Source: a virus
Virus record (IMG/VR): IMGVR_UViG_3300045125_000064
Location: 1 to 64,000 of that record
Direction: 5' to 3' (one strand)
DNA: 64,000 nt
The translations under genes were made by a program, and so were the position numbers. Each line of letters starts with the position of its first letter. Position 1 is the first letter of the stretch. Shown here piece by piece: positions 12,334 to 61,453 of this stretch. The notes beneath the pieces were generated by a model that saw nothing but the letters and a program-made list of their open reading frames with translations, was not told the origin of the DNA and searched no databases.

Positions 12334-14792
12334 ATGAAAAAGAAAATTGTGATTTTTGGACCAGTTCTAAGTGTTTCTGGTTATGGCTATCAGGCCAGAT
12401 TTGCTCTGGAAAGTTTAAGAAGAAAAGAAGATATATTCGACATATATGTTATAAACACACTCTGGGGAGCAAATGGATGGATTCCAGAACAAACTGAGGA
12501 AAGACAATATATTGACTCTCTTATTCTCAAGACAAACAAATATCTTTCCCAACCAAATCAAGGATTTGATATTTCTCTTCAGATAACCATTCCAACAGAG
12601 TTCAAAAAAATGTGTCCATTAAACATTGGATACACAGCAGCAATGGAAACAGATAAGGTTGCTCCAGAGTGGATTGTTAATTGCAATGAAATGGACAAGA
12701 TTATTGTTCCATCAGAACATTCAAAGAAAACCTTGACAGATTGCTCATATGTTGGAATCAATAATCAAACAGGACAACAAGTTGATGTGAGACTCAATGT
12801 TCCTGTTGAAGTTGTTTCCTTCCCATTCAAAAATGTTGATGGATGTGAAGAAGTTAAAGAACTTGAGGACATAAAAACTCCATTCAATTTCTTGACAGTT
12901 TCACAATGGGGACCAAGAAAGAACATTGAGAACACAATTGTTTGGTTCCTTCAAGAGTTCCAGAATAATCCAGATGTTGGCCTTGTTCTCAAAGTTCATG
13001 GAGCAAATCCAGCAATTCCAGACAGATATAACGTTCTTGAGAATATTCAAAGAATCAAGAAACATGCTTGTCCAAATTCAAAGGCAAAGATTTATCTTCT
13101 TCATGGATATATGACAGAGGGACAACTTAAAACTGTTTATTCGTCTGAAAAAATCAAAGCAATTGTTCAGATATCCCACGGGGAAGGGTTTTGCGGATTA
13201 GATTATACTCCAATTATTACGAAAAAAGGAACAAAAAGATTAGATTCAATGTTGGTAGGTGATGAAGTTCTAACTCACAAAGGTAGATTCAAAAAAGTAT
13301 CTAAACTTTTAAGAAGAAATTATACAGGAGAGATGTATAAAATAACTCCATATAATACTCAAAATGTTGAACCAATTATTTTAACTCCAAATCACAATGT
13401 CTATGTTTACAACAAAAAAGATGACAATTTTGTTTGGAAAAAGACAGAGGATCTAACTAAAAAAGATATTTTATGTATTCCAAGACCATCTTTTCTGATA
13501 ATCTAAAAGAAATCAATATATTTGATTATTTAACTAGATGAAATGTGGTTGTTGAGAATGATGTAATAAAATTTATACATTCAAACGGTACTGGAAAGGA
13601 AATCAAGAATACTCTTAAACTAGATAAGGAATTCGCAAAATTATTTGGATATTATCTGTCGGAAGGTTGTGCTAGTTCATCCGATATTATATTTTCTATC
13701 CACGAAAAAGAGATATCCACTCTTGGAGAAGAAATTATTGATTGTATGAATAAATGTTTTGGATTAAACCAATATAAGTTCCAAAAACAAAATAACAAAA
13801 AATGTATTAATTTAGTCTTTCAATCAACAATAGTGTCTGATTTTTACAGAACTTTAGTGGCAAGGGAGCAAAAAATAAATATCTTAACAAAATCTTGTTT
13901 AAGACAGACAATGAATTTAAAGAGAATTTAATAACATCATTATTGAATGGAGATGGGTACATAGGGGATAAAGCAACAAATCCTTCAATAGAAATTTCTT
14001 TATCAAATAAAAAATTGCTAAGAGATGTTAAATTGTGGTTGTTAGAACTTGGCGTTATTTCAAATTTTGATAATTTTGTGAGAACTGGAAAAATTAAAGT
14101 GAGAGAAGAAAAAGAGATAGAATACACAATGGATGTTGAAAGATTAAGAATAACTCAAAAAGATTCTTTTGATATTATAATAAATCTTCTAAACAAGAAT
14201 CATCAATTTAATAAATTTAATAATTCTAACAAAAAATCTTTTTCATCAAATGTAAAAACTGAATTAAACAACAATATGTATTTGATGAAAATAAAAAACA
14301 TAGAAAAACAAGACTTTTGCGGAGAAGTATTTAATATATCTGTTGAAGATGATGAATCATATTGTACAGAAAACTTTATGGTGCACAATTGCCTCCCACT
14401 TTTTAGAAGCCGTTGAGAACAACCTTCCAGTTATCACCATTGAATATGGTGGTCAACTTGATTTCTTGAAATATTCAGACAAGAAGGGAAAACAAAGAAA
14501 AGGTTTCATCAAGGTTGATCATGATATCAAAAATGTGCATCCAGAAGCTGTCTGGCAAGGTGTTATCAACCCAGATATGACCTGGGCATATGCCAAGGAA
14601 TCCTCCTTCAAAATGGCTCTGAGGGCTGTTTATAAGGATCCTGGAATGGCATTGTCGATGGCCAAAAAGGTCAGAGAAGATTTCTTGGCATCATCTGGTG
14701 ATCTTTATGAGAAATTTGCAAATTTAATATACAAGAGAGATTCTAAATTTGCAGAATGGCTAGAGTCTATTAAAGCAGAAGAATGTCTATGA
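12334..14792 (+). CDS. family 4-type glycosyltransferase interrupted by an intein
   Basis: ATG 12334 (MKKKIVIFGPVLSVSGYGYQ) starts the N-extein, 286 codons to 13191: IGYTAAMETDKVAPEWI, IIVPSEHSKKTL, FLTVSQWGPRKN, QISHGEGF. The C-extein resumes at 14390 and, after one shift, reads CLPTFLEAVENNLPVITIEY to TGA 14790-14792. Joined exteins give HGEGF-CLPTFLEAV, the GT-B EX7E donor-binding motif, in about 420 residues, matching the 421-residue sister enzyme upstream. The usual Gly after EGF is Cys, the +1 nucleophile needed for splicing. Activity therefore likely depends on intein removal. Sugar and acceptor unknown. Confidence 0.85.
13192..14389 (+). mobile_element. intein with LAGLIDADG (DOD) homing endonuclease
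   Basis: The first residue is Cys (TGC 13192) in CGLDYTPIITKKGTKRLDSM. GDEVLTHKGRFKKV completes splicing block A, and LTPNHNVYVY (about 13381) is block B with its TxxH. Two LAGLIDADG-like helices, LFGYYLSEG (about 13641) and LLNGDGYIG (about 13939), mark a DOD endonuclease. VFNISVEDDESYCTENF is block F and MVHN with the following Cys (14390) is block G. About 399 residues, normal for a full-size intein. Shifts near 13500 and 13905 are probably sequencing errors. More A/T-rich than the exteins. All splicing residues (Cys1, block B His, penultimate His, Asn, Cys+1) are visible. Confidence 0.9.
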
Positions 14793-53803: not shown

Positions 53804-55407
53804 ATGGTAACAGCACAAACAAATAAAGCATTTATAATCAATGAATTAAAAAATGTGGCAGAGATCCCATATACTTTTTGTTAAAATATGGCAAGATCTG
53901 CTCATCCAGAAAAAGGAACTATTCCTTTTAAACTATACGATTTCCAGAAAGATTGTATCGAAGACTTTATGACTCATCGTTATAATATTGTTTTGAAAGG
54001 TGAACAGCTTGAGCCTTCTCAACAACAACGGCAGGATATATTGCTTGGCTTATTCTGTTTAATAGAGATAAGACAGTTCTTGCTGTGGCAACAAAAGAAA
54101 CGGTTGCAACAATCATTGTGGAGAAAAGTAAAAGAAGATTATTAAATCATCCAGACTGGATGAAGATTGCACAACCACTTCTGCAAACAATACAGAGCTA
54201 CTAGAACTTTATAATGGTTCTTGGAGTTAAAGCTTCATCAACATCTGGTAGATACTGGTGTTTCTGAGGCTCTTCTTTATTAGTTATTGACGAAGTCAGC
54301 ACTTATTAAAAATATGGATGAAATTTGGACTGGTCTTTATCCAACTCTTGCTGTTGCTGGTGCTTGTATTGCAATTTCAACTCCTAGAGGTGCTCAAGGT
54401 TGGTTTCATAAATTTTAATACAGATGCAGAATTTGGCAAAAATAATTTCATCCAATAAAATTAATGTGGTATGTTCATCCAAGATAGAGATGAAAACTTC
54501 ATTGAAACAGAAAAGAAAAATATGTCTCCAAGGCAAATTGCACAAGAGTATATGTGCAGCTTCTTGGCTTCAGGTGATACGTTTATTGACCCTGACGATA
54601 TTCAGAGATTACAAAAAAGACTTGATGACCATAAAATTGCCCCATTACAGAAAACTGGAGATGGAAAGAATTTATGGATTTGGAAAGAACCAGAGGAAGG
54701 AAAAAATATTGCATTGGCGCTGACGTTTCAAGAGGTGATGGTGCTGATTATTCAACTGCACAAGTTATTGATGTTGATTCATATGAACAGGTTGCAGAAT
54801 TTGAAGGTCAAGTCGAAGAAAATATTTTTGCATCCATTTTGTATGAACTTGGAAAAATATTATAATAGCGCATTGATTAGTATAGAGAATTCAATGCAAG
54901 GTCCAGGTGTAATAAATAGATTAACAGATGATTTAGAATATACTAATATATACTGCACTAGGAAGTCAAATCATGATTATGTGCCTCATTATTTAACTTC
55001 AATGGGAGGCACTGAAATCGCTAAAGGTTTTTCTATGACAACTAAATCAAGACCATTGGTTTTATCTTTTATGGAAGAAGTTATTAGAAATGAACAAATT
55101 GTTATTAATTCTCCAAGATTAATTGATCAATTTAACACATTTGTTTGGGATGGAGATAAACCACAGGCAGCAAGAGACAAAAATGATGATCTCAGTTATG
55201 GCACTGGCAATTGCAATTTGGACAAGAGATAAAGCAATCTTCTCATCAATAAGAAATGGTAAGATGAACAAAATAATGATTCTTGCTTGTGTTAAAGATA
55301 GTAAAGATTTGGACACAAGAGTAACTGGAATGGTTGGATATAAACCAGAACCATCAAGACCAAAACCAGATAAAAGAAGTTATTATCTGTCCTGTTTTAG
55401 AGGTTAA
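53804..55407 (+). CDS. terminase large subunit (gp17-like)
   Basis: ATG 53804 (MVTAQTNKAFIINELKNVA). ATPase part: IPFKLYDFQKDCIEDFMTHR and NIVLKG..L (Walker A neighbourhood, badly garbled near 53995-54040), ILFNRDKTVLAVATKETVAT near 54055, VIDE near 54285 (Walker B) and ISTPRGAQGWFHKF (coupling motif III). Nuclease part: KKYCIGADVSRGDGADYSTA (first Asp), ALISIENSMQGPGVINRL and DKNDDLVMALAIAIWTRD (final acids). At least six shifts. About 535 residues, slightly shorter than T4 gp17 (610). Motor that pumps DNA into the prohead through the portal encoded next. Confidence 0.85.
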
Positions 55408-55412
55408 AATAA

Positions 55413-57462
55413 ATGGCGAATACAAGAGCAGGGTTAAGAACCTATAGAAATAATAAACAAAATACCAAAAATCAAGAATCACCTTTATATCAAAAGCTGA
55501 CAAAAATCTTTTCTGGTCCAATTGTTAACTATCGTTCCAGAATGGTAACAAAATAGAAAGAGAGAGATTGATAAATTTGGTAAGAAATTCAATTCAATGT
55601 CTGGCCAAAAGTATACAAGAAATCTTTATACTCCATTCGATTATATAAGAACATCTGTAATGTCTGCACAAAATAGACAGGAAAGATATGTTGATTTTGA
55701 TCAAATGGAATTTGATCCATTCTTGGCTTCTGCTCTTGATTTATATGCAGACAGTATTACAACACATACTGAAGTTTCTCCAGTTCTCCATATAGAATGC
55801 ACAAACGACGAGATTAAGAATATTCTTCAAACTCTATTTTATGATGTTTTAGCAATGGAATCAAACGCTTTCTATTGGGCAAGAAACGTTTGTAAATATG
55901 GAGATTTTTTCTTTATCTTGAAGTGGATGACACAGTTGGAGTTCAATCAGTTATTGCTTTACCTTCAATTGAAATTGAAAGACTTGAAGGAGAAGATGAG
56001 ACAAATCCAAATTATATCCAATTCAGATGGAATAATGGTGGCTTAACATTTGAAAATTGGCAAATTGCTCATTTTAGACTTCTTGGAAATGAAAAATATA
56101 ATCCTTATGGAACATCTGTTCTGGATCCAGCAAGAAGATTGTGGAGACAATTAACAATGATGGTTGATTCTATGATGGCTTATAGAATCACAAGATCAGC
56201 AGAGAAATTGGTATTCAAAGTTCCAGTTGGTGGTATAAACGAGGAAGATATTCCTGGAGTAATGGAAGCATTCATTTCCTCAACCAAAAGACACCAAATC
56301 GTTGACCCAGATACAGGAAGAATTGATCAAAGATTTAATCCTGTTTCGATTGAAGAAAATCTTTATTTCCCAACCGTTGGCGGTGAAGGCCCAACAGTGG
56401 AAACATTGACAAGCAGGTCAAAATCTAACAGCTATTGAAGATATTAAGATGTTAAAGCAAGCAATGTTTGCAGCTATTAAAGTTCCAGAAGCATATCTTG
56501 GTGGTGGAGAAAATCCAGAAGATCAAACAACTTTGACACAGAAAGAAGTTCATTTTACAAACACAATTCAGAGAATTCAAAGAGCAATAATTGAAACACT
56601 AGAGCACATTGCCAAGGTTCACCTTCTAGTAATGGGCTTTAGAGGTGATGATCTTCTATCCTTTAAACTAAAGTTCAATAATCCTTCAAAGATTGCAAGA
56701 ATGCAAGAATTGACTGCGTTCAAAGAACAACTGGATGTTGCAAGTGCTGCAAAGGGAATTAATATGTTCAGCAATCGTTACATCTACACTCAAATCTTTG
56801 CAATTCCAGATGAAGAGGCAAAGAGAATTGAAAGAGAAAGATTCTATGATATTCAAATTGAAGCTGCAATTCAAGCTTCTGCTCAAGAAATGGGTGGAGA
56901 AGGTCAAGAAGGCGCAATGGGCGGAATGGGAGCAGGTGGTTTGGGTGGCGATGAAATGATGCCATCTGGTGGTGATTTGATAGGCGATATGTCTCAGCTT
57001 TCATCAGAACCAGGGCCATCAGGAGAAGGTGGAGGAAGTGTTGAAACTGGAGAAGAGCCAACAGTTGACAAAGAAGCTCCATTGTTAGCAAGTCCAGGCA
57101 ATTTCCAGCCACAAGCTGTTTCACAAACTGTTGAAAGAGATTCTGATGGAAATATTGTTAAAATTCATCTTGGGAATAGTCACACTCTAACTCCAAAATC
57201 AAAAGGTAAAGTTTATAAGCCAGAAATTGTTGATTCAAGAAAGAATACTGGGCCATTAAATCGTTCAATGAAATACCAAATGGGTGCTGGTGTAAGTTCT
57301 AATTCAAATAGAAACATAAATCCTGGAACAAATGCGTTAAAGAGATTGTCTAAGCTCCAGGAAAACAAAGATGCTAAGAGTGATACTATTTATACTGACC
57401 TAACAAATTATTTTAATAATATGGAAACACAGTTGGAGAAAATAGATGAAGCTAAAGCATAA
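55413..57462 (+). CDS. portal protein (gp20-like)
   Basis: ATG 55413 (MANTRAGLRTYRNNKQNTK). IRTSVMSAQNRQERYVDFDQ, DPFLASALDLYADSITTHTE, and after shifts near 55555 and 55918 VQSVIALPSIEIERLEGE, FENWQIAHFRLLGNEKYNPY, GTSVLDPARRLWRQLTMMVD and YRITRSAEKLVFKVPVG are gp20-family text. AAIKVPEAYLGGGENPEDQT, after a shift near 56438, lies in the clip/stem region. A Gly/Met-rich linker (MGGMGAGGLGGDEMM) and a basic tail end at 57462. About 680 residues, longer than T4 gp20 (524) because of this C-terminal extension. Forms the dodecameric DNA gate. Confidence 0.87.
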
Positions 57463-57934
57463 CAAAAAAAGAAATACTCTTTTCCTATTTGAAACATTGA
57501 TGTATGAGTTTACTCAAGCTTCCTTAAACAAAGATAATGAGTATGCTAAAGATATCAAGAAAACAATTTTATCTTTCTTCAACAAAAACACTCCTTTATA
57601 CGAAGAATTGCAATTATATAAATCTATTGTAAATACAACCAACATTAAGGACAGAAGAGTGGCAGAAAAGATACTCTTTGAGTCCAAACTGGAATATATA
57701 AAACTAAATAAGCAACAAGTGTTTTCGTCTCAAACTGCTCTCATCAATAGAATAAACAAAAATTTAAGACCATCTATATTTAATAATCCAGTCAAAAATT
57801 ATACAAGCATGGCATCAGCATATCAGATATTTAACAACACTTCTGACGTTAAAACAAGAGTTTTGCTGGAAGAAGAAATGCTGGAAAATATGTGTCGCTG
57901 CGAAGTGCTTAATGAAGAAAAGACAGCCAATTGA
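57446..57934 (+). CDS. hypothetical head-region protein, 162 aa
   Basis: ATG 57446 overlaps the portal stop by 17 bases (MKLKHNKKRNTLFLFETLMY). Intact frame. Helical: FTQASLNKDNEYAKDIKKTI, RVAEKILFESKLEYIKLNKQ, SSQTALINRINKNLRPSIFN. No family recognised. Coupling to the portal and prohead genes suggests a capsid or neck assembly role. Confidence 0.68.
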   Translation: MKLKHNKKRNTLFLFETLMYEFTQASLNKDNEYAKDIKKTILSFFNKNTPLYEELQLYKSIVNTTNIKDRRVAEKILFESKLEYIKLNKQQVFSSQTALINRINKNLRPSIFNNPVKNYTSMASAYQIFNNTSDVKTRVLLEEEMLENMCRCEVLNEEKTAN

Positions 57935-58271
57935 TCCTTTAACTTTTAAAATTGCAGTCAACAACTATAACAAAAAATATGAGACATTACTAGAAAACCA
58001 AAAAACTCTTCTAAAGAAATTTGTATTATCTGGTAATCAAGATAATTTTGCAGACTTAGTTGTATATTTGTCAGAAGAAATATATAGAATTGAGAAAAAT
58101 ATTTCAGAATCAATTAATTCTGTTGAAGAAATAAACAAAAATAAAATTATAAAAGAAAATGCTTTAATGATTCTTAATCTAATAAAAGAATTTAGATATA
58201 AAGAAATTGATGAAGAATTAATTAAAACAATCCTAAAGCTCCAAAAAATTGAGCATGAGATATTGACATAA
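57912..58271 (+). CDS. hypothetical coiled-coil protein
   Basis: ATG 57912 overlaps the previous gene by 23 bases (MKKRQPIDPLTFKIAVNNYN). Intact 119-residue frame, almost entirely helical (YETLLENQKTLLKKFVLSG, YRIEKNISESINSVEEINKN, EEYLIKTILKL-like end). Possible scaffold-associated protein; function not recognised. Confidence 0.65.
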   Translation: MKKRQPIDPLTFKIAVNNYNKKYETLLENQKTLLKKFVLSGNQDNFADLVVYLSEEIYRIEKNISESINSVEEINKNKIIKENALMILNLIKEFRYKEIDEELIKTILKLQKIEHEILT

Positions 58272-58272
58272 T

Positions 58273-58827
58273 ATGATAACAATTAATATTGGTGATAAAG
58301 AATTAAATGTGTCAGGTTTGGAACCAGATCCAATGGAAGATCAGGATCCAAATGCTCCAATTATTATAAAAGTTGGGAAGCAAGCAACAAGAATTAGACT
58401 TAATATAAGAAAAACTCTCGATAATAATTTTATTATCTATGATCATGATTTAATTGAAATTATTATTGTGCCAGATAAAAATAAAGTTATAACAGTTCCA
58501 AAAGTAAATACAACAACTGACACATATCCAGCTCAAAATAGATATTTTGAGATGCTTGAAAAGAAAGGAATTACAATTAGAGGAACAATTCGCTCTGGTC
58601 CAGTTTACAATTCACTTGAAGCATATTATCCTGTGAACGAAGAAATAAATGTTCTTCAAGTTGTTATTTTGGCAACAAAACGATTCATTGATATTGAAAA
58701 AGAGATGCATGACACTGCAAAAGATTATGATGATAACATAGAAGATATGTTCTTAGAGCCAGATGAAGATGACTCCACTGAGCTTGGGGAAATTCCACAT
58801 GATAGACCTGGTAATTTCCCCATATAA
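58273..58827 (+). CDS. hypothetical head-region protein, 184 aa
   Basis: ATG 58273, one base after the previous stop (MITINIGDKELNVSGLEPDP). Intact frame. Beta-strand core (LNIRKTLDNNFIIYDHDLIE, IIIVPDKNKVITVPKV), NRYFEMLEKKGITIRGTIR, GPVYNSLEAYYPVNEEINVL and an acidic C-terminus. No family recognised. Part of the portal-protease block. Confidence 0.68.
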   Translation: MITINIGDKELNVSGLEPDPMEDQDPNAPIIIKVGKQATRIRLNIRKTLDNNFIIYDHDLIEIIIVPDKNKVITVPKVNTTTDTYPAQNRYFEMLEKKGITIRGTIRSGPVYNSLEAYYPVNEEINVLQVVILATKRFIDIEKEMHDTAKDYDDNIEDMFLEPDEDDSTELGEIPHDRPGNFPI

Positions 58828-58880
58828 TCCCTATAATCCTTCTTATACCTCAATGGTAAGAGAATGGTTGGAGAAGAAAA

Positions 58881-59165
58881 ATGCCAAGTAATATTTCAGA
58901 ACTATTAACTTTTATCTTTGGGTGTTATGGGCTGACAATGATTCTATGTTATGGAAAAATCTTAGATTTTGCTAGAATTAAAATACCTTTTTTTAATAAA
59001 ATGACACAATGCAGTCTTTGTACTGGCTTCTGGTCAGGAATGTTAATTTCTTTGTTTTTCTTTAACGCTTATTATATAATGTTGTTTGGATTTGTTGGTT
59101 CTGGCACTAGTTATATTTTAGATAAACTCATTAGTGATGATGGGATCCAAATTAAGAGAGGCTAA
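58881..59165 (+). CDS. small membrane protein, DUF1360-like
   Basis: ATG 58881 (MPSNISELLTFIFGCYGLTM). Three hydrophobic segments and the motif TQCSLCTGFWSGMLISLFFF match the CxxCxGFWxG pattern of DUF1360 proteins common in tailed phages. 94 residues. Role unknown. The 50 bases before it hold no gene. Confidence 0.72.
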   Translation: MPSNISELLTFIFGCYGLTMILCYGKILDFARIKIPFFNKMTQCSLCTGFWSGMLISLFFFNAYYIMLFGFVGSGTSYILDKLISDDGIQIKRG

Positions 59166-59166
59166 T

Positions 59167-59299
59167 ATGATAGTAGGAATAAGAAAAACAGGTTTCCAAT
59201 TTTGGACACAAAAATGGTCTAAAAGACCCCCAACTAATTGCAAAAAAGGTTGCTGACTTCATACTTATATTATATAAAGAGAGGATAACAAATGTCTAA
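59167..59299 (+). CDS. very small hypothetical protein
   Basis: ATG 59167 (MIVGIRKTGF). After a shift near 59210 the frame reads KDPQLIAKKVADFILILYKE to TAA 59297-59299. About 44 residues, one shift. Alternatively an untranslated leader of the next gene. No family recognised. Confidence 0.35.
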
Positions 59300-59528
59300 A
59301 ATTATAATTGAAGTCAAAGAACTTAACAGAATTATATCTGAAGAAGTGGAAAAATTTGTTGAAGAAGTTGAATCAAAGCACCCAGATGTTTTGAAAGAAA
59401 AACTAAAAACTATGCCAAAAGAGCAGTTGATCAACTTACTACAAGAATGCTCATCTGATTCTGAATTTATACTTGATAATGTGAGTAAATATATGCTTCA
59501 CAGACTTTATAAGAAGAGCAGAAAATAA
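59292..59528 (+). CDS. small hypothetical helical protein
   Basis: ATG 59292 after GAGAGGATAACAA (MSKIIIEVKELNRIISEEVE). Intact 78 residues, Lys/Glu-rich helices (KFVEEVESKHPDVLKEKL, MPKEQLINLLQECSSDSEF). Immediately upstream of the prohead protease and probably part of prohead assembly. Not recognised. Confidence 0.6.
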   Translation: MSKIIIEVKELNRIISEEVEKFVEEVESKHPDVLKEKLKTMPKEQLINLLQECSSDSEFILDNVSKYMLHRLYKKSRK

Positions 59529-59530
59529 TA

Positions 59531-60169
59531 ATGACACAGCAAATCCTTCTAACAGAATTTTATCTTGCAGATTATGAGCTTCCAGAGTTTAAGTCTTTAT
59601 TGACTGAACAGGAAATTTATGATAATGAAAATGGTGGAGTTTTAACTCTTTCAGGAAGATTTCAACATGCAGATTTGAAGAATGGAAATGGAAGAATCTA
59701 TCCAGAAGAGATTCTGAGTAAGAGAAGTAAATAATTATCAACAGCTCATTAGAGATAAGAGAGCAACTGGAGAACTCAATCATCCAGAAACAGCTACCGT
59801 TGATCTTGAAAGAGTATCACACAATATTACATATCTTGAAATGAGAGGCAAAGAAGTTGTTGGTAAACTTCAAGTATTAAATGATATGCCAATGGGTAAT
59901 ATTGTTAAAGCTCTTTTACAAAAATAAGATTAAATTTGGAGTTTCATCAAGAGCATTGGGTTCTGTCAAAGAATCAAAAGGTAATATTGTTGTACAAGAT
60001 GATTTACAATTAATTTGTTTTGATATTGTCTCTGATCCTTCCAACTCCTGGGGCGTTTTTGCATGAAGCAAAAGAAAAAGTTTATGAGAGAACAAATGAC
60101 AAAAGAAAAAGAATTGAAGAAGCAATGAAAACATTGATTTTTGATATGGGGAAATATGGAAGCAAGTAA
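59531..60169 (+). CDS. prohead maturation protease (gp21-like)
   Basis: ATG 59531 (MTQQILLTEFYLADYELPEF). LTLSGRFQHADLKNGNGRIY opens the domain; after shifts near 59730 and 59920, ATGELNHPETATVDLERVSH carries the catalytic His and FGVSSRALGSVKESKGNIVV the nucleophilic Ser (S-x-R-x-x-G), as in T4 gp21 and relatives. DLQLICFDIVSDPSNSW is the conserved strand that follows. About 212 residues, matching gp21 (212). It digests the scaffold and trims head proteins. The stop overlaps the scaffold start. Confidence 0.87.
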
Positions 60170-60727
60170 ATTAAGAGAAATATTAAAACCAATAATTCAA
60201 CAATTGGTTCAAGAAGAAGTTGAAAAGGCAATAAAATTATATGAACAGAAGAGTGCTGGAAAGAAAATGTTGGCTCTTCAAATGAAGAATTGCTAAAAGA
60301 GATTCAATCTCTAATAAGACCACTAGAAAAGAAACTAGATGGATTAACTGGCTCTTCTAACAAAACTTTAATGGCAGAGCAAAAACAGCAACAGCAAAAA
60401 GTTCCTCCAAAAGTCCAAGAACAGACTACACAGATAAGAAATAAATTTAGAGAACAAATGGAGTTGGAACGAGAAAAGAAAAATAAACAATTTGAAAATC
60501 TGATGCATTCAACTCTTCAAGTTCCCAATATCCCAGGTGTGAAAACTCCAAACAAAATTATGATGAATGAAGTTATGGATGATCTTGACGAAGATGGACC
60601 AAAGATGTTTGTCCAAGAGGGGCAAGAAGAACAATACGAGAGTTATGATCCAACACTATATGATGATGATGCAGAGGATATCGCAGAGATCTATGGTGAA
60701 ATGTGGAAGAAAAATAAATTAATATAA
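60156..60727 (+). CDS. prohead core/scaffold-like protein (gp22 position)
   Basis: ATG 60156 overlaps the protease stop. MEASKLREILKPIIQQLVQE, VEKAIKLYEQKSAGKK, then after a shift near 60273 NEELLKEIQSLIRPLEKKLD, MAEQKQQQQKVPPKVQEQ, IRNKFREQMELEREKKNKQF and a highly acidic tail (YDPTLYDDDAEDIAEIYG). About 190 residues, mostly coiled coil with Gln-rich linker. This is the composition of internal scaffolds digested by gp21 proteases, and order protease-scaffold matches T4 gp21-gp22. Sequence identity to gp22 was not tested. Confidence 0.65.
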
Positions 60728-60736
60728 GAGGTTAAA

Positions 60737-60949
60737 GTGTCAAAAAGAAGAAAATCAAGAAATAATTATAATGTTCAGGTAACTTTGGAAGAATGCAGAG
60801 GAAGTGCAGAAAGAATGATTAAAAAATTCTGTAATAAAGTCAAAAAAGAAAAAATTCTTGAAGATTTTAGAGAAAGAATGACATATGAAAAACCTTCTGT
60901 CAAGCGAAGAAGAGAAAAAATACGAAGAAAAAAGTTGCTAAACAACTAA
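60737..60949 (+). CDS. rpsU: ribosomal protein bS21 homologue
   Basis: GTG 60737 after AAGAGGTTAAA (MSKRRKSRNNYNVQVTLEEC). Intact 70 residues. EECRGSAERMIKKFCNKVKK, then EKILEDFRERMTYEKPSVKR with RRREKIRRKKLLNN, match the bS21 pattern: ALRRFKR-like first helix, a G/E-rich turn, E-x-R-x-R-x-x-YEKPSxxRRR and a basic tail. Length equals bS21 (about 70). bS21 binds the 30S platform near the anti-Shine-Dalgarno sequence; phage copies are thought to favour phage mRNA translation. Placed between scaffold and virion genes, so probably expressed late. Confidence 0.8.
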   Translation: MSKRRKSRNNYNVQVTLEECRGSAERMIKKFCNKVKKEKILEDFRERMTYEKPSVKRRREKIRRKKLLNN

Positions 60950-60985: not shown

Positions 60986-61453
60986 ATGTCAAATTTTGAT
61001 GGAGATAGAAGTGCTGGTTATTTTGCACCAGGTTTAGGTTCAGTTGGAGCATATCAGATATCTGGTATTCCTTATATCACTTCAAGCTTGTCAGTTCCAT
61101 CCGGTTCGTCTACACCATTGAAAATTCAGTTCCCTGGAGTATCAAATTATATTTATGTGAAAAACACAATGTCAACAGCATCTGCTGCTGCCCCAATAAG
61201 ATTTGGTTTTTCACAAAATGGTGTATCTGGCTCAAGCGCAACTCACTATATGGCATTATCAAATGGTGAATCATTTCAGGCAAATTGGAGAGTTGAAGAT
61301 ATATATTTAATTGCAATAAGCCCATCGGCCACAGGGTCTGCAATGGTTGCTGCTGGTATAACACCAATTCCAAGAGGAATTCCGCCAGTTGTTGAAGGTT
61401 GGACAAGTGGTTCAAGATGGAATAACTGGAGTGGTTCAAGCGGAATTGGATAA
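60986..61453 (+). CDS. small virion protein with beta-rich fold
   Basis: A strong ribosome site (TAAGGAGATATAGG) precedes ATG 60986 (MSNFDGDRSAGYFAPGLGSV). Intact 155 residues: APGLGSVGAYQISGIPYITS, IQFPGVSNYIYVKNTMS, RFGFSQNGVSGSSATHYMA, VEDIYLIAISPSATGSAMVA, Ser/Gly-rich end. Soluble, beta-sandwich-like; reminiscent of head-decoration or fibre-tip proteins of marine phages (the APGLxxVGxYQVSG opening), but the assignment is only suggestive. Confidence 0.62.
   Translation: MSNFDGDRSAGYFAPGLGSVGAYQISGIPYITSSLSVPSGSSTPLKIQFPGVSNYIYVKNTMSTASAAAPIRFGFSQNGVSGSSATHYMALSNGESFQANWRVEDIYLIAISPSATGSAMVAAGITPIPRGIPPVVEGWTSGSRWNNWSGSSGIG

Follow-up and report, generated by a model that had tools for sequence, protein, structure and literature searches.

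Why would a bacteriophage keep the gene for a ribosomal protein in its head-gene block? The question is raised by a 64,000-nucleotide stretch of viral DNA (IMG/VR record IMGVR_UViG_3300045125_000064, positions 1 to 64,000; hereafter the window), in which a gene at 60737-60949 had been assigned, in a preliminary description made from the letters alone, to ribosomal protein bS21 and placed inside a head block. Both assignments hold. The record is that of a large T4-like phage with its own bS21 copy among its head-building genes, and this copy is a genuine bS21 in a head-block slot that is conserved among related phages. Positions marked "record" refer to the complete virus record of 172,865 bases, of which the window is a part.

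Identity of the bS21 gene

The 70-residue product, which contains YEKPSVKRRREK, matches the Ribosomal_S21 model of Pfam (PF01165; 2e-10, 40.6 bits, cut-off 27) and the S21 equivalog of NCBIfam (TIGR00030; 2.6e-8, 33.6 bits, cut-off 28.95), in both cases over the curated cut-off, as well as PHROG 21469, 'ribosomal protein S21' (8e-4). No better match to a generic basic DNA-binding protein was obtained from the Pfam search that had been suggested as a check, and the sole extra match to another Pfam family, Acyltransf_C, lies below its cut-off (E = 0.073). When the product is compared with the sequences of the PDB, all matches at E <= 0.15 are bS21 chains, as are 35 of the 37 in the whole list. 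The protein is short and very basic, with the aromatic-x-K-P-S segment between helices present as YEKPS at residues 50-54. Its AlphaFold model (mean predicted local distance difference test score, pLDDT, 81.6) has helices at 24-38, 40-48 and 53-69, and the 12 structures matched by Foldseek all come from ribosome entries, mitochondrial ones first; the best E-value is 0.30 and none reaches 0.001, which is not surprising for a fold of this small size. The reading frame is open and its alignment with relatives spans its length, and this is the only S21 copy in the record. On sequence grounds, the identification of 60737-60949 as the gene of a genuine phage bS21 is thus confirmed.

A conserved slot among the head genes

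The gene is preceded on the same strand by terminase, portal, small conserved genes, the prohead protease and an open reading frame (ORF) without assigned function, and followed by a 155-amino-acid (aa) gene, a fibre-like ORF and the capsid gene, all on the plus strand, so that S21 sits between the prohead protease and a T4-type major capsid protein and shares its strand with both. Only 9 nt separate the preceding stop from the S21 start, and Shine-Dalgarno-like sites of the GAGGT kind, such as the one found here, also precede S21 in many relatives.

When viral contigs were scanned with an alignment of S21, 48 loci were obtained; in nearly all of them S21 follows a gene that we call p131 (131 aa) and lies 3' of the protease and 5' of the capsid gene, in the same orientation. 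In order to avoid starting from S21, a second scan was seeded with the protease alignment and the best 80 loci were taken; as this alignment was built from S21-bearing loci, the sample leans to the same lineage. Of these 80 loci, 57 contain S21, in every case on the protease strand. Where a locus extends from the protease as far as the capsid gene, S21 is present in 24 cases out of 27, while most other S21-less loci among the 80 end too soon. The order is also tight at the level of the direct neighbour, given that, among 85 distinct S21 genes accompanied by a p131 homologue, 80 start directly after it.

Such synteny bears on the possibility that a host rpsU gene has been carried along by chance, or that host DNA contaminates the assembly, a suspicion nourished by the bacterial-looking records (a Salmonella contig, for example) among those of the phage collection with an S21 match. 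However, phage head genes lie on either side of the gene, the slot is kept in dozens of contigs, and S21 is under purifying selection. We therefore consider this possibility exceedingly improbable; chance carriage and contamination are ruled out by synteny.

The selection is strong. The median ratio of nonsynonymous to synonymous polymorphism (pN/pS) of S21 is 0.20 over 43 non-independent pairs. S21 distances correlate with those of the protease (Spearman 0.31, permutation p 0.0005) and of a 94-aa neighbour (Spearman 0.36), as is expected of a gene inherited along with the block, and this is consistent with descent of S21 with the head block within the lineage.

The tight linkage to head genes, together with the very basic character of the protein, could also suggest that the bS21 fold has been repurposed, off ribosomes, as a nucleic-acid-binding or scaffold protein of head assembly. 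The aligned relatives speak otherwise: PF01165 is the sole Pfam family that they match (36 of 36), a profile built from these 36 sequences retrieves nothing but bS21 from the PDB at E <= 0.001 (36 sequences), and most of the relatives retain the aromatic-x-K-P-S segment and the basic helix at the C-terminus. Moreover, the same head block occurs in Flavobacterium phage immuto, in which no S21 is annotated. Repurposing is thus very unlikely.

Proposed role during infection

Two studies of other phages indicate what a viral bS21 might do. Among the ribosomal proteins encoded by viral contigs, bS21 is the most frequent, and that of Pelagibacter phage HTVC008M, a myovirus which, like the phage described here, carries its own bS21, is incorporated into Escherichia coli 70S ribosomes (Mizuno et al. 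2019, PMC6375957). In Bacteroidetes phages, bS21 lies inside the head-gene block; its late transcription has been measured in phages with the gene beside the same head genes, and take-over of the ribosome by phage bS21 has been proposed (Chen et al. 2022, PMC9723584).

In the present locus, membership of the S21 family, the place in the head block, the shared strand, the ribosome-binding site, the conservation of the slot and purifying selection are directly supported, while we infer from the family, and from what has been published on other phages, that the gene is transcribed late, that its product enters host ribosomes and that phage mRNAs are preferred. All together, we think it probable that this bS21 is expressed late, along with the head genes, and that the protein enters the host 30S subunit and supports or biases initiation on late phage mRNAs. 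By analogy with bS21 phages that have the gene beside the same head genes, late expression of the window bS21 may fairly be expected. The protein would then exchange into host 30S subunits, or fill vacant sites there, and would be placed beside the anti-Shine-Dalgarno end of the 16S rRNA, where it might favour the abundant late mRNAs for virion proteins; that the window bS21 biases initiation in this way is our hypothesis.

A number of observations weigh against this proposal. S21 was not found in three of the 27 protease-to-capsid loci (L134, L153 and L154), and since none is annotated in immuto either, the gene is dispensable in some relatives. Neither is the head-block position a general rule, as the bS21 gene of HTVC008M adjoins CobS-like and Hsp20 genes, outside the head block, and that of Salicola phage SCTP-2 lies away from the head genes. 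In addition, in the only direct test of a viral bS21 in ribosomes met in the literature consulted, translation by E. coli ribosomes with the HTVC008M protein was about 5%, although in a mismatched system (PMC6375957).

The constant position of S21, which lies between the genes for the prohead protease and the capsid protein and shares their strand, can also be viewed in another light. Chen et al. (PMC9723584) raised the possibility that bS21 is packaged in the virion; as a virion component, packaged with the products of the head block and ejected, it would act on the ribosomes of the next host from the start of infection. We regard this as unlikely. Inspection of the S21 alignment by eye, which was not systematic, revealed no conserved motif for N-terminal targeting or for a protease site, and a gene may lie in a head block without coding for a virion protein. 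The further proposition that bS21 owes its fixed place in the head-assembly gene set to packaging in the virion and delivery along with the DNA, which would allow incoming phages to retune host ribosomes at once, appears decidedly unlikely. Late synthesis and action on the ribosomes of the infected cell is the reading that we retain.

Gene content of the head block and of the record

The features of the head block are collected in Table 1. In this record, frame breaks affect the genes for terminase, portal, protease and capsid protein alike, while relatives have them mostly intact, so that indel errors in the assembly are suspected; the frameshifts in window 53888-60300 and record 65785-67585 point to error-prone assembly. 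The portal gene, for example, is unbroken in the relative locus L002 (580 aa). The terminase fragment 54471-55232 matches 86 ORFs of the loci.

Table 1. Features of the head block that carries the bS21 gene
Feature	Position	Strand	Basis or remark
Large terminase, split over frames	53888..55232	+	phrog_24361 'terminase', 3e-6
Portal protein, gp20-like, split over frames	55597..57462	+	phrog_213, 2.8e-22 and 2e-15
184-aa conserved head-block gene, no assigned function	58273..58827	+	matches in about 118 locus ORFs
94-aa conserved head-block gene, no assigned function	58881..59165	+	matches in about 120 locus ORFs
78-aa ORF 5' of protease	59292..59528	+	84-aa gene of L002 equivalent by position only
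Prohead (head maturation) protease, gp21-like, three frames	59531..60170	+	phrog_207 in two fragments, 2e-5 and 4.5e-12; three-frame translation
145-aa ORF directly 5' of S21	60290..60727	+	positional equivalent of the 131-aa p131 gene
GAGGT, Shine-Dalgarno-like site	60728..60732	+	sequence; 4 nt before GTG of S21
bS21 (rpsU-like) gene	60737..60949	+	GTG start, TAA stop, 70 aa
155-aa gene directly 3' of S21, no assigned function	60986..61453	+	51% identity to L084, 43% to L002 equivalent
T4-type major capsid protein, split over frames	record 65785-67585	+	3' of S21 and long fibre-like ORF

The 145-aa ORF that precedes S21 probably represents the 3' portion of a gene whose start lies near 60141. 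BLAST of this ORF against the p131 homologues gave no match, so that their equivalence is by position only, and no family match was found for p131; the 155-aa gene on the other side of S21, which relatives conserve, has no Pfam match. Between the capsid gene and the neck region, an ORF at record 67749-69170 matches the Mom family (PF25680, 2.2e-7) and contains a NUMOD3 motif. Given the frameshifted head genes, the small ORFs of this record have to be read with care.

Elsewhere, at record 131567-132646 and 133615-135039, a nicotinamide/nicotinate phosphoribosyltransferase (NCBIfam NF006629, 602 bits; Pfam NAMPT_N) lies near an NMN adenylyltransferase/Nudix-like protein, in what looks like a phage NAD+ salvage pair. 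Such pairs have been described as a counter-defence against NAD-depleting immunity. An adenylosuccinate synthetase homologue (record 155394-156476) scores up to 255 bits with PurA models against 131 bits with PurZ, below every NCBIfam cut-off, which leaves it without a firm PurA or PurZ assignment. A GroEL-like chaperonin is broken over two frames (record 116793-118032), and a LAGLIDADG/intein-like sequence, possibly an intein or a homing endonuclease, adjoins glycosyltransferase-like ORFs (window 13545-14416; PF14528, 1.3e-6).

Comparison with known systems

Phage bS21 genes near head genes had already been described before this record. In 310 of 900 published bS21 phage records, a prohead protease lies at most ten genes from bS21, generally two to four (PMC9723584); in the sections of that survey drawn on here, the strand and the direct neighbour of bS21 are not described. 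A close parallel is offered by the freshwater Bacteroidetes phages of Chen et al. (PMC9723584), also large and of similarly low GC content, in which the genes for terminase, portal, prohead protease and major capsid protein form a block that includes bS21. Unlike in those phages, where bS21 lies opposite to the head-gene strand, here it lies on the same strand, as it does in all 57 S21-bearing protease loci. The proteins differ as well, since the Chen-type bS21 carries a C-terminal aromatic residue at the position of Flavobacterium johnsoniae Tyr54, near the C-terminus, whereas the window bS21 has none after Tyr50. A Bacteroidetes-type phage bS21, ending in IYIQKL, was also encountered at L003:5007-5204, on the opposite strand to its neighbours, among which are RtcB-like and polyphosphate-kinase-like ORFs (named by eye from sequence).

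Regarding the host, Shine-Dalgarno-like sites precede 39% of 114 ATG starts of this record's ORFs, against 6% of internal ATGs, whereas Bacteroidetes usually lack such sites. Judged from these start regions, the widespread sites argue against a Bacteroidetes host. A scan of bacterial genomes with two short motifs gave at least nine loci, mostly in Patescibacteria, and was not used to name a host.

The cultured Microcystis phage Mel-JY01 (PP395634) has an annotated RpsU on the same strand, in the order protease, small gene, S21, capsid gene. Its S21 sequence is divergent from the window bS21: tblastn of the latter against the phage collection, Mel-JY01 included, gave nothing at E <= 0.01, and Mel-JY01 was recognized as a relative through its head genes only. 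The present locus adds to the phages studied earlier a broad T4-like group, apparently outside those of Bacteroidetes, in which bS21 is a near-constant, same-strand gene of the head block, and Mel-JY01, as a cultured member, could serve as a system for a possible effect of phage bS21 on the mRNA choice of ribosomes or for its possible carriage in the virion.
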